Below, piece by piece: positions 2,700 through 14,713 of a DNA stretch of 14,713 nt. This DNA is from an uncultured Verrucomicrobiota bacterium (GTDB lineage: Bacteria; Verrucomicrobiota; Kiritimatiellia; RFP12; UBA1067), in contig CALYRV010000044.1 in NCBI GenBank assembly GCA_945483525.1, positions 1 through 14,713 on the forward strand, written 5' to 3'. The notes under the pieces were generated by a model, which made no database searches, was not told where the DNA came from, and worked only from the letters and a program-made list of their open reading frames with translations. How positions within the stretch are numbered: position 1 is the first letter of the stretch; each line of letters opens with the position of its first letter. Position numbers and translations under genes: made by a program.

Positions 2700-5659
2700 T
2701 GGATATTGTCATCAAGAATGCCAAGGTTCACAATCTCCGCGGAATCGATGTGACGATTCCGCGGAATTCCTTGACGGTCATTACCGGGCTTTCCGGTTCC
2801 GGTAAATCTTCCCTCGCCTTTGACACCCTTTATGCCGAAGGACAACGCCGCTACGTCGAGTCGCTCTCGGCTTATGCGCGGCAGTTCCTAGATCGCATGG
2901 AGAAGCCAGATGTCGAGCGCATTGACGGACTCTCTCCTGCGATCTCTATTGAACAGCACACGACCTCGGGTAATCCCCGTTCCATTGTCGCGACCGTTAC
3001 CGAGATCCATGATTACCTCCGTATCCTGTACGGATCGATCGCCACGGCCCATTGTCCGCATTGCGGCAAGCCCGTCACTAAGCAGTCCGCCGAGCAGATC
3101 GTGGATTCCATTCTCAATCTTAAACCGCAGGCTTCAGCTTCGGGGCGCAAGATCATCCTTCTTGCTCCAGTGGTGAAGGGCAAGAAGGGCGCGCAAATCG
3201 ATGTCTTCGCCGCGCTTAAGCGCAACGGCTTCGCCCGCGTGCGCGTTGACGGCGAGATGTATTTGCTTGATGAGGTTCCGGAACTCGACAAAAAGAAGGC
3301 CCATAATATTGATGTCGTCATCGACAGGTTGGTTTTGCCGTGTGCGGAACTTTCCGACTCTTGCTCAACGTCTCAAATTCCCAATTCCTTTCGCACCCGT
3401 CTTACCGATTCCGTTGAACTCGCGCTCAAGACTGGCAAAGGCATCCTCAAGGTCGAAGAACTCGGATCCGCTCCCGAATCCCGAACCGCGAACCACGAAC
3501 CACGAACCACCACCTACTCCGAACTCAACGCCTGCGTCGATTGCGGACTCTCCTTTGACGAACTCAAGCCCCGTAGCTTCTCCTTCAATTCGCCGTTTGG
3601 AGCCTGTCCGAAATGTTCTGGCCTCGGCCAGCTCTACTTTTTCGACGAGGACCTTATCGTTCCCGACAAGACGCTGCCGCTGGAGGAATGCATCCATCCG
3701 TGGCGCCGTCTTGGGGGACAGATGGCGATACTTTATCATAAGGAGCTTCTCGTCCACATTGCGAAACAGTACAAGGTGAAGCTCTCGACTCCGTACCAGA
3801 AGCTGCCCGCGGCATTTCGTAAAGGACTTATGCACGGCTTTAAGGACGACCTCGTCCTTCCCTGGCGCCGAAATGACAAGCCGTTTGAGGGTGTCATCGA
3901 GAATCTTCAGCGCAAGATGGAGGAGGCGCCGGATGACGAGGTCCGCGCGAAATATGCCGCCTACCAGAACTTCAAGACCTGCCCTGATTGCGGCGGTTCG
4001 CGACTAAATGAATTCTCTCGCGTAGCTGAAATCGCCGGCCGGACCATCGTCGACGTGATGGCGATGCCCATCGCCGACTGCCTCGCCTTCTTCAAGAAGT
4101 TAAGAAGTAAGAGTGAAGAGTCAAGAGTTGTGGAGGATTCTCTAAATGACGATTCCACAACTCTTCACTCTTCACTCTTAACTCTTAACTCCAACCGTCT
4201 TGCCGGGCTGCGCGACATCCTCGCGGAAATCGTCAAACGGCTGCAGTTCCTGCTCGACGTCGGCCTCGACTACCTCACGCTCGATCGCGCGTCTTCGACC
4301 CTCTCCGGCGGCGAGATGCAGCGCATCCGTCTCGCGACGCAGATCGGTTCGGGGCTTACCGGCGTCCTCTATGTCCTCGATGAGCCGACGATCGGACTCC
4401 ATCCTCGCGACAACGAGCGTCTCATCAATACGCTCAAGAGTCTGCGAGACCGCGGGAACACCGTGGTCATCGTCGAGCATGACGAGGAGATGATGCGCGC
4501 CGCTGACTACATCGTCGACCTCGGTCCCGGTGCGGGACGCGAAGGCGGCAAGGTGATGTATCAAGGCGACTTCGCGGGGCTTCTCAAGGCGAACTCATTG
4601 ACGGCCGACTATCTGACCGGACGCAAGAAAGTAAGAGGTAAGAGTGAAGAAGTAAGAGTTGCGGAAAGTTCTTCTTTGAAGAAGATTAAAAAAACCACAA
4701 CTCTTCACTCTTCACTCTTACCTCTTAACTGCCTTACCATCTCCCGCGCGACAGCGCACAATCTGCGTAATCTCACCGCGCACGTCCCGATCGGTTCGCT
4801 GACCGTCGTCACCGGTGTCTCTGGATCCGGCAAGTCTTCGCTCGTCTACGACACGTTGAAGCCCCGGATGATCGCGAAGATGGACGAGCATTTCGATAAG
4901 ATGATTGAAATCGACCAGTCGCCCATCGGGAGGACGCCGCGATCGAATCCCGCGACCTACGTCGGATTCTACTCCGATATCCGCGATCTCTTCTCGAAGA
5001 CCGAGGCGGCGAAGGCGCGCGGCTATACGCCCGGACGCTTCTCGTTCAACGTGAAGGGCGGACGGTGCGAGGTGTGCGGCGGCGACGGGGTGCAGAAGCT
5101 CGAGATGAGCTTCCTCCCCGATGTCTATGTCACCTGTGAACAGTGCGGCGGCAAGCGCTTTAACGCGGAGACACTCGAGGTCGCCTACGGCGGCAAGAAC
5201 ATCTCGGAGATCCTCGAGATGACCGTCGCCGAAGGCTGCGAGTTCTTCGCGAAGATCCCGTCCGTCTACAAGAAGCTCAAGACGCTTCTTGATGTCGGAC
5301 TCGGCTACATCGCCCTCGGTCAGTCCTCTACAACTCTCTCCGGCGGCGAGGCCCAGCGCATCAAGCTCGCGACTGAACTCTGCCGACGGTCTACCGGCAA
5401 GACCCTGTATCTGCTGGACGAGCCGACGACCGGACTCCACTTCGACGATGTCGCGAAACTGATGAAGCTTCTCACGCGGCTCCGCGATCAGGGCAACACC
5501 ATACTGATCATTGAGCATAATCTTGACGTGATCCGAATGGCCGACTGGATTATCGATCTCGGACCCGGTGGCGGAGATAAAGGCGGACGGCTGGTCTTTG
5601 AGGGGACAGTCCCCAATCTCAAGAAGTGCAAGGACTCCCTTACGGCCAAGTTCCTATGA
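2699..5659 (+). CDS. uvrA: Excinuclease ABC subunit A carrying four repeat insertions
   Basis: UvrA is the damage-sensing ATPase of nucleotide excision repair; it loads UvrB at lesions. Both ABC modules are complete. The first has Walker A GLSGSGKSS (30-38), signature LSGGE (535-539) and Walker B with DE at 561-562. The second has Walker A GVSGSGKSS (from 706), signature LSGGE (880-884) and LLDEPTTGLH. Zinc sites are CVDC (279-282) with CPKC (303-306), and CEVC (790-793) with CEQC. The length of 986 residues compares with about 940 in E. coli. The excess comes from four heptanucleotide-repeat insertions at about residues 222-231, 260-273, 467-498 and 644-678, all in loops between conserved blocks. 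In contrast, about 20 residues are missing between the second Walker A and IDQSPIGRT. The start overlaps the rho stop as TAATG, suggesting translational coupling. All catalytic motifs survive, so the protein is probably active. Confidence 0.97.
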   Translation: MDIVIKNAKVHNLRGIDVTIPRNSLTVITGLSGSGKSSLAFDTLYAEGQRRYVESLSAYARQFLDRMEKPDVERIDGLSPAISIEQHTTSGNPRSIVATVTEIHDYLRILYGSIATAHCPHCGKPVTKQSAEQIVDSILNLKPQASASGRKIILLAPVVKGKKGAQIDVFAALKRNGFARVRVDGEMYLLDEVPELDKKKAHNIDVVIDRLVLPCAELSDSCSTSQIPNSFRTRLTDSVELALKTGKGILKVEELGSAPESRTANHEPRTTTYSELNACVDCGLSFDELKPRSFSFNSPFGACPKCSGLGQLYFFDEDLIVPDKTLPLEECIHPWRRLGGQMAILYHKELLVHIAKQYKVKLSTPYQKLPAAFRKGLMHGFKDDLVLPWRRNDKPFEGVIENLQRKMEEAPDDEVRAKYAAYQNFKTCPDCGGSRLNEFSRVAEIAGRTIVDVMAMPIADCLAFFKKLRSKSEESRVVEDSLNDDSTTLHSSLLTLNSNRLAGLRDILAEIVKRLQFLLDVGLDYLTLDRASSTLSGGEMQRIRLATQIGSGLTGVLYVLDEPTIGLHPRDNERLINTLKSLRDRGNTVVIVEHDEEMMRAADYIVDLGPGAGREGGKVMYQGDFAGLLKANSLTADYLTGRKKVRGKSEEVRVAESSSLKKIKKTTTLHSSLLPLNCLTISRATAHNLRNLTAHVPIGSLTVVTGVSGSGKSSLVYDTLKPRMIAKMDEHFDKMIEIDQSPIGRTPRSNPATYVGFYSDIRDLFSKTEAAKARGYTPGRFSFNVKGGRCEVCGGDGVQKLEMSFLPDVYVTCEQCGGKRFNAETLEVAYGGKNISEILEMTVAEGCEFFAKIPSVYKKLKTLLDVGLGYIALGQSSTTLSGGEAQRIKLATELCRRSTGKTLYLLDEPTTGLHFDDVAKLMKLLTRLRDQGNTILIIEHNLDVIRMADWIIDLGPGGGDKGGRLVFEGTVPNLKKCKDSLTAKFL
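3363..3390 (+). repeat. Degenerate 7-bp repeat in uvrA (ATTCCCA type)
   Basis: Two clear 7-bp units, ATTCCCA (3377-3383) and ATTCCTT (3384-3390), follow two looser ones, GCTCAAC (3363-3369) and GTCTCAA (3370-3376). They encode about residues 222-231 of UvrA (around STSQIPN), an added polar stretch in a variable region where E. coli UvrA is shorter. The ATTCCCA cycle has no stop codon in any frame. It resembles the ATTCCTA array before hisK. This is the weakest of the eight repeat sites because the units are few and diverged. Confidence 0.5.
3476..3517 (+). repeat. 7-bp tandem repeat in uvrA (GAACCAC type)
   Basis: Six heptamers run in phase: GAATCCC, GAACCGC, three exact GAACCAC, then CACCTAC. 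The total of 42 bases is 14 codons and keeps the uvrA frame. It is translated as an Arg/Thr/His/Glu-rich loop (residues 260-273) just before the CVDC zinc site, where UvrA proteins vary. The same unit type recurs between the GH20 gene and ispF at 10903-10930. The GAACCAC cycle reads E-P-R-T-T-N-H in any frame and never gives a stop. Confidence 0.88.
4098..4190 (+). repeat. Inverted-repeat heptamer element, copy 1, in frame within uvrA
   Basis: The left arm at 4098-4134 and the right arm at 4154-4190 are inverted complements, 34 of 37 positions by hand count, with a 19-base loop. Each arm is built from 7-bp units of the CACTCTT/AACTCTT type, or AGTGAAG on the left, with AGTTGTGGA next to the centre. 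The length of 93 bases is a multiple of three. It encodes about residues 467-498 of UvrA, including RSKSEESRV and TTLHSSLLTLN, in a variable linker before the first ABC signature region. A G-to-C mismatch at 4122 turns what would be an in-frame TGA into TCA. Confidence 0.93.
4629..4730 (+). repeat. Inverted-repeat heptamer element, copy 2, in frame within uvrA
   Basis: The left arm at 4629-4664 and the right arm at 4695-4730 match in 30 of 36 positions by hand count. The 30-base loop holds its own small hairpin (4669-4674 with 4678-4683). The right arm matches that of copy 1 at 35 of 37 bases, and the left arms at 30 of 37. The length of 102 bases is a multiple of three. It encodes RGKSEEVRV and TTLHSSLLPLN, close relatives of the copy 1 peptides in the same frame. 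It sits in the linker just before the second ABC module. Three adjacent mismatches at 4651-4653 change GAG-TGA into GAA-GTA, removing an in-frame stop. Confidence 0.93.

Positions 5660-14713: not shown

Follow-up and report, generated by a model that had tools for sequence, protein, structure and literature searches.

Heptamer repeats have been noted in unrelated bacteria for years, and no agreed mechanism accounts for them. The present analysis deals with repeats of this kind in a stretch of 14,713 nucleotides from an uncultured Verrucomicrobiota bacterium of the class Kiritimatiellia (contig CALYRV010000044.1; this whole stretch is called the window), where short tandem arrays lie within uvrA, the gene of excinuclease subunit A, and at other places. 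In the Nostoc tRNA-Leu intron heptanucleotides and the short tandemly repeated repetitive (STRR) sequences of cyanobacteria, hairpins with heptad arms and variation of copy number are known, although these repeats stand in intron or intergenic DNA and are not known from loops of housekeeping proteins. One host of related elements, O. terrae, belongs to Opitutus, a verrucomicrobial genus.

As far as the available parts of the published accounts go, described heptamers include the GGGNATC family of Xanthomonas and Nostoc, treated together with the heptanucleotides of Calothrix and the heptamer family of Nostoc (PMC4692102), and the TAACTGA family of Beggiatoaceae, Cyanobacteria and Bacteroidetes, whose reverse unit is found inside open reading frames whereas the forward unit gives stops in all frames (PMC4679880). 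In Geobacter metallireducens, the unit GGACCGG occupies 49 intergenic and intragenic places, and two heptamer classes occur (PMC2700814). Repetitive extragenic palindromes (REPs) measure 20-40 bp, have a tagged foot and fall into GTAG/CGTC families; intragenic REPs lie within uvrA of O. terrae and Thioalkalivibrio, and it was suggested that, placed in flexible linkers or loops, such sequences are neutral (PMC3733652). Rickettsia palindromic elements (RPEs) form families of 100-150 bp standing in frame in protein genes; for RPEs and the Wolbachia palindromic elements (WPEs), orthologues with an insert at the same locus are described, as is the presence of both in the same region of one gene (PMC3767692, PMC10969869). 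The initial annotation of the window, made from the sequence alone, had named RPEs and STRRs as precedents, which understated them, as they also include the in-gene heptamers of Geobacter metallireducens (PMC2700814) and the REPs within O. terrae uvrA (PMC3733652).

The arrays of the window are explained here, with a probability of roughly one half, as local samples of genus-wide families of dispersed 7- and 8-bp repeats that replace one another in a few tolerant slots through copying, slippage, hairpin formation and selection. The slots would be loops of large housekeeping proteins (UvrA and the glutamate synthase GltB, the latter identified by NF008730), the DNA just 5' of extended -10 boxes, and intergenic gaps. 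The number of families, the two periods and the dozens of related genomes make a slot-by-slot comparison possible, which shows content being replaced, beyond growth or insertion alone.

Replacement of content is observed between two sister genomes, G018 and G012, whose shared flanks are about 96% identical. Within the examined DNA, 12 of the 36 array places of G018 have an orthologous slot in G012, and 14 of 35 G012 places have one in G018. The 16 merged slots, classed by eye, hold different content in 9 cases, mixed content in 1 and the same family in 6, with the unit number changed in 3 of these 6. Copy number stands at 3 against 2 between the sister genomes at L251:1527, and L277:15705 has more GTTGAAAG-type units than G018; in some intergenic slots, the difference amounts to hundreds of bases and could reflect larger rearrangements. 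Even the period changes, as period-8 arrays fill slots that hold period-7 arrays in the sister species and in another slot a 9-bp repeat faces a period-8 array. Thus, two gltB slots contain CGAACCA in G018, a period-8 CTAACCAC-type repeat in G012 and a GGGAACG-type repeat in their close relative G021. In a 15.1-kb alignment of 96.5% identity, all 6 hypervariable islands lie inside gltB, 5 of them with repeats on at least one side and the island at 5163 without a repeat. At the right edge of L098:6473, the heptamer array of G018 runs into CACCTAACCA, part of the period-8 array of G012, via a shared AACCAC. At two places, a heptamer array of G021 is found opposite ordinary sequence of similar length in G012 and G018 (difference of +6 or +12), and this similar-length counterpart argues for replacement and not for pure insertion. 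The gene invasion initially proposed stands as far as in-gene, in-frame repeats are concerned, although it looks more like replacement of content in fixed tolerant slots than insertion into empty sites.

Frame is respected in gltB and uvrA, where the differences of length between G018 and G012 are multiples of three in all 9 slots and islands (0, +12, -3, +21, -45, -6, -6, -18 and 0). Two further slots, placed in genes by a crude codon-usage gene caller, show differences of -9 and +33, although the strands assigned to the +33 slot are inconsistent; intergenic differences are mixed. A 9-bp-period repeat (TTTAGCCACAAAGGACAC...) in GltB (L098 4473-4520) is two units longer in G012 than in G018. 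A GGGAACA-type array of G021 also lies inside a gene at L262 2236-2268, where G018 and G012 have ordinary sequence; the G018 counterpart of that gene (L098 15553-17268) resembles, by eye, prolyl-tRNA synthetase.

In the window itself, self-matching at lag 7 (+1/-1.5) was ranked against shuffled versions of the 14,713 bases (first-order Markov; 200 shuffles, after 100 in a first pass). Six segments score at least 11, against a shuffle mean of 0.02: 3472-3510 (24.5), 4160-4191 (22.5) and 4700-4730 (16.5), for each of which the probability of a shuffle maximum reaching the score is 0.000, then 10900-10926 and 14389-14420 (12.5 each, P 0.005 each) and 4101-4128 (11.0, P 0.010). The segment 4631-4650 scores 8.0 (P 0.415 when taken alone), and 3376-3388 (6.0), 7436-7452 (5.0) and 8492-8511 (5.5) are at chance level. 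When periods from 2 to 30 are scanned, a segment reaches 11 only for 7, 14 and 21, and the strong arrays are also reported by Tandem Repeats Finder. Among the eight period-7 arrays of the initial annotation, those at 3476, 4098, 10903 and 14364 hold alone and the one at 4629 holds through its second arm, whereas 3363, 7442 and 8500 do not rise above chance. The main units are AACTCTT, CGAACCA and CCAGCTA, and the features, all on the plus strand, are as follows.

2699..5659, plus strand: uvrA, excinuclease subunit A, 986 residues, with slots A-E (NCBIfam TIGR00630 at 1211 bits, above its cut-off; solved UvrA relatives).
3338..3391, plus strand: uvrA slot B, residues 214-231, which contains site 3363 and is an insert when compared with most relatives; the heptad signal is at chance level.
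3472..3510, plus strand: uvrA slot C, array of CGAACCA units, translated ...ESRTANHEPRTTT (lag-7 score; Tandem Repeats Finder).
4090..4136, plus strand: uvrA slot D, left arm of a heptad hairpin (lag-7 score).
4155..4191, plus strand: uvrA slot D, right arm of the heptad hairpin, xACTCTT units (lag-7 score; fold).
4627..4665, plus strand: uvrA slot E, left arm of a heptad hairpin, pairing with 4695-4730.
4695..4730, plus strand: uvrA slot E, right arm of the heptad hairpin, with nearly the same sequence as the right arm of slot D (from 4155).
7435..7462, plus strand: weak repeat 5' of argC (two 14-bp copies by Tandem Repeats Finder; lag 7 at chance level).
8492..8511, plus strand: degenerate ATTCCTA-like repeat 5' of a hisJ-family gene, at chance level.
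10900..10926, plus strand: CGAACCA array in the gap between a glycosidase-like gene and ispF (lag-7 score; ispF by TIGR00151).
14364..14420, plus strand: CCAGCTA/CCAACTA array in a CNNM/CorC-like gene, frame open (Tandem Repeats Finder, lag 7, translation).

Two of these sites had been taken for simple arrays. Sites 4098 and 4629 are the left arms of inverted repeats of about 105 bp each, with heptad arms of about 40 bp, whose stronger right arms had been overlooked. Folding of the single strands with RNA parameters gives -52.8 kcal/mol for 4089-4194 and -50.1 kcal/mol for 4626-4735; an Rfam scan of the window at the gathering threshold returned no known structured RNA. The right arms of slots D and E (from 4155 and from 4695) are identical at 35 of 36 bases, so that one gene contains two nearly identical arms. 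Hairpins are frequent beyond the window as well: an inverted partner within 150 bp, matching at no fewer than 15 of 20 bases, accompanies 40 of 161 arrays, against 2.7% when the flanks of other arrays are used, and at 18 of 20 bases the figures are 4 of 161 and 0.4%. In loop E, the window and the related protein P0004 have the hairpin middle in common and both arms read differently (at the protein level only), as if the arms changed together, which would fit snap-back copying. A 9-bp-period repeat (TTTAGCCGCAAAGAACGCAAAG...) also forms a palindrome in UvrA loop D at L015/L022 11318-11390.

As had been claimed, the in-gene arrays of the window keep the frame, since all uvrA arrays share one open frame and the array at 14364 is open in translation. 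This had been attributed to heptamers whose reading cycle is free of stops. The cycles of GAACCAC, CCAGCTA and ATTCCCA are indeed stop-free on the coding strand, but the uvrA hairpins are built mainly from AACTCTT, and this unit and its reverse, AAGAGTT, both contain TAA within the cycle. A stop-free cycle fails as an explanation of every in-gene copy; the hairpin copies are kept open by unit variants and phase. The annotated proximity to start codons holds for the array at 10900-10926, which stops 6 bp short of the start codon of ispF at 10933, whereas the sites at 7442 and 8500 do precede argC and the hisJ-family gene but are weak as arrays.

The window also contains rho and a guaA-like gene, so that its genes comprise rho, uvrA, guaA-like, argC, hisJ-family, glycosidase-like, ispF and CNNM/CorC-like ones, plus others; for the CNNM/CorC-like gene, all NCBIfam matches are under their cut-offs. 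The truncated first gene (65-508) resembles by eye the C-terminal part of a secretin-like protein. The guaA-like gene (6406-7410) covers only the C-terminal synthetase part, with 335 residues, whereas a longer GuaA-like protein of 515 residues is encoded, as judged by eye, at L098:7139-8686.

Scanning genome contigs for UvrA gave at least 580 matching stretches, 563 of which encode a relative, and the best 80 were used, of which 52 are Kiritimatiellia-like and 28 distant. The window groups with rumen and gut Kiritimatiellia, its relatives being mostly rumen and gut metagenome bins; the closest UvrA among the matches listed is 74% identical, and the window's species is therefore not among them. 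In the 805 kb around uvrA of the 52 relatives, 44 lag-7 and 19 lag-8 segments reach a score of 12, whereas the 28 distant loci, with 414 kb, contain 1 and 3. A further 1,364 kb from 15 relatives, picked by contig number and including 472 kb of G018, contain 54 lag-7 and 33 lag-8 segments, whereas lags 10, 11, 13 and 17 give 5, 0, 4 and 1, and 244 kb of five distant genomes give 0 at lag 7 and 1 at lag 8. Lags 6, 9, 12 and 15 are high too, but coding sequence has an inherent period of three, while 14 and 16 are multiples of 7 and 8. At least one lag-7 segment is present in 13 of the 15 relatives, G008 and G017 having none. The favoured periods are 7 and 8, not 7 alone; the strict period of 7 initially described, already combined with varied units in the window, has to be widened accordingly, since period 8 is in excess too and occupies the same slots in sister species.

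Units are species-specific. Pattern counts were made in 61 genomes of one genus, with overlapping matches counted so that longer arrays weigh more. A CGAACCA 19-mer matches in 4 of the 61 (51 matches in G018, 19 in G012, 3 in G021 and 1 in G005; 2 in total for the reversed control), which, by eye, represent about 27 distinct places in G018 and 11 in G012. GGGGAAC is found in 15 and AGGAGTC in 8 of the 61 genomes, with no match for either reversed control; GGGGAAC has none in G018 and G012 and 17 matches in G021. The prevailing unit thus shifts from species to species. The period-7 enrichment anticipated beyond the window is present across related genomes, and the repeat segments were not found conserved in distant orthologues. 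On the scale of the phylum, a CGAACCA 22-mer matches in 3 of 240 genomes (reversed control 2 of 240) and a CTCTTNA pattern in 6 of 240 (control 8 of 240); since the controls match about as often, these counts do not establish a wide spread of either unit. Among IMG/VR contigs (L291-L311), 4 stretches contain a CGAACCA 27-mer and 17 contain the CTCTTNA pattern.

UvrA offers the broadest view of slot reuse. In an alignment of 46 open sequences, window included (2 of 48 tried had stops in the translated frame, and 5 of the 52 relatives were left out as incomplete matches), variability is restricted to a few loops. Apart from the window, 15 of 45 species have period-7/8 arrays in UvrA, 24 in total: one is at the N-terminal end and the other 23 are in loops A, C, D and E. 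Loop E alone holds 18, with about a dozen units by eye. Array density is 20.4 per 100 kb in UvrA and 6.4 elsewhere in the same loci (window counted). At slot B, most relatives have PCD(R/K)TRLT. The slots are called loops because they fall at alignment gaps or between aligned domains of the solved UvrA 9gxk (in a printed alignment that is incomplete near its end) and because their sequence is variable; they may be disordered. A protein search, from which the best 120 of 7,997 scored candidates were retained and 16 compared (P0003, which looks chimeric, was omitted from the loop comparison), gave P0002 with 99.1% core identity to the UvrA of the window, where loops A, B and C are identical and D and E differ. 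In P0004 to P0014, at 92.8-96.4% identity, most loops differ. One cassette type was recognised by eye in loop B of P0010 and P0012, in loop D of P0002 and in loops B, D and E of P0008.

Such a pattern would probably arise in four steps. A patch of repeat DNA, whose source would be a further copy within the genome or a related strain, would be copied into or over a slot, either by template switching or through short-patch recombination guided by short homologies; units would then be gained or lost through polymerase slippage; snap-back synthesis would produce inverted copies and hence hairpins with heptad arms; and purifying selection would keep changes of protein length divisible by three and spare the -10 box, with a hydrophilic reading perhaps favoured. 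The copying step, with its enzymes and direction, is inferred. Short-patch double illegitimate recombination, in which a short patch is replaced by ectopic single-stranded DNA at short homologies, would yield the pattern seen here, although this process is rare and is not known to be tied to repeats or slots. A reverse transcriptase as copier (retroelement or diversity-generating retroelement type) was considered and rejected, RVT_1 (PF00078) having no match in G018, G012 and G021, whose assemblies may be incomplete; it is matched in 15 of 25 genomes searched. A bolder and rather doubtful version holds that active short-patch copying keeps rewriting the same UvrA and GltB loops and promoter-proximal slots from a changing pool of 7- and 8-bp repeats. 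If so, species would come to differ in loop content within genes that otherwise remain 96-99% identical, and the 7/8-bp period would be a fingerprint of the copying machinery and not of any one sequence.

Several points weigh against replacement in tolerant slots as the explanation. No swap event is seen directly, donor and recipient not being matched base by base, and a short motif shared at the slot edge is clear at L098:6473 only. The slot at L277:15705, genic in G012 only according to the crude caller, breaks the frame rule with a difference of 31 bases. Seven close pairs gave few clean empty/filled sites in which the direction of change, or the terminal inverted repeats and target site duplications of miniature inverted-repeat transposable elements (MITEs), could be read. 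The structure predicted for the window UvrA from 24 sequences (mean predicted local distance difference test score, pLDDT, 51.4; predicted template modelling score, pTM, 0.34) is too poor to show loop disorder. Loop D of P0002 resembles that of P0008, and the swapping in UvrA may partly be ordinary recombination between alleles of species. The 15 genomes were selected partly for arrays already seen near uvrA, and the genomes are metagenome assemblies. The arrays preceding -10 boxes in G018 could instead mean a regulatory role, and Y1_Tnp, matched in 30 of the 40 genomes searched and above the cut-off in 28 of these, leaves room for a transposase.

This last route would make the repeats REP- or MITE-like palindromic elements, moved in trans by a Y1 transposase (like the REP-associated tyrosine transposases, RAYTs) or another transposase, with single arrays as decayed halves. 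Hairpins with heptad arms would be expected of such elements, and REPs do occur, according to the part of the account available, within uvrA of O. terrae and Thioalkalivibrio (PMC3733652). It seems unlikely all the same, as no fixed element length, ends or consensus are seen and the units, even the period, differ within one slot between sister species. G018 has four Y1 matches; around the two that were examined, one being at a contig end, no period-7/8 array (score 10) lies within 2.5 kb. Some array-bearing genomes, G001, G033 and G034 among them, gave no Y1 match, although they may be incomplete.

A role as regulatory sites, protein-bound promoter or leader elements under selection with in-gene copies as by-products, appears still harder to defend, although it has the promoters of G018 in its favour. 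There, 12 of 29 CGAACCA arrays have a TATAAT within 30 nt, compared with 0.3% for random positions. The box is downstream on the C-rich strand in all 12 and on the other side in 0 of 29, and so occurs on one side and one strand only. This box is an extended -10, TGGTATAAT. By eye, period-8 CTCTGCG/CTCTGTG repeats stand directly 5' of a similar start codon (ATGGCAAC...) at L002, L008, L010, L036 and L046, a copy that seems conserved in place across several species; TAACTGA repeats before start codons are likewise described for a Beggiatoaceae genome in the available part of that account (PMC4679880). However, swapping affects promoter slots as well, since at L109:19829 the element of the sister genome that ends at the same -10 box is unrelated, many G018 TGGTATAAT places have no array, 12 of the 25 period-7 arrays in the G018 sample lie in called genes (crude codon-usage caller), and units vary by species. 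Under replacement in tolerant slots, the arrays at -10 boxes are read as tolerance just 5' of a promoter that needs no -35. A dispersed element ending GGCTACGG(C/A)GGGC(A/G)GGCGAATA meets TGGTATAAT boxes as the heptamer arrays do (L108 near 14490, L109 near 6060 and the G012 counterpart of L109:19829). As for orientation, CGAACCA reads as hydrophilic EPRTTNH and its reverse as VVRGSWF, which may explain why its in-gene arrays mostly have, by eye, a single orientation.

Independent births, with every array grown in place by slippage and no movement between loci, are improbable and largely contradicted already. Changes of unit number between sister genomes, as at L251:1527 and L277:15705, would suit them, but the CGAACCA unit is found at about 27 places in G018 yet is absent from most relatives searched, and two uvrA slots have a 36-base arm in common with one mismatch. 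Chance periodicity or an assembly artefact, suggested by the three chance-level sites among the eight listed and by the metagenomic origin of the genomes, is very improbable given the shuffle tests, the recurrence in many separately assembled genomes and the reading frames kept in uvrA and gltB.

If slots are replaced in this way, repeat DNA may overwrite loops of central proteins while the gene stays open, which offers a tractable case of protein sequence born from repeats. Compared with REPs, in the part of their account available, the present repeats are also short palindromes within housekeeping or repair genes, more than once per uvrA; unlike REPs, their arms are 7-/8-bp tandem arrays of about 40 bp in the window, no fixed ends are seen and content swaps per slot. 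As RPEs do, they sit in open reading frames with the frame kept, but there is no single family of 100-150 bp, units and lengths varying by slot and species (the hairpins of the window measuring about 105 bp), and the RPE accounts, in their available parts, mention no 7-bp tandem structure (PMC3767692, PMC10969869). Palindromic amphipathic repeat coding elements (PARCELs), from the part of the source available, are likewise dyad-symmetric repeat DNA read as protein and shuffled within genomes, whereas their motif has 25 residues and their hosts are membrane and hypothetical proteins (PMC2996958).

With the heptamer families, the present repeats share dispersed tandem 7-bp units, often near gene ends or starts and sometimes in genes. 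As in the GGGNATC and TAACTGA families, the 7-bp period rises above other periods, but here period 8 is in excess too. The units differ from these named ones: of 311 loci outside the window, none has two consecutive TAACTGA units and 1 has two consecutive GGGNATC units, once, and six repeat strings had no full-text match in the literature. Each heptamer account, in its available part, names one unit (two classes for Geobacter), whereas many units and two periods coexist here in one genus, with turnover by slot. Compared with its known relatives, the present system is distinctive in its many units, its two periods and the turnover inside fixed slots.

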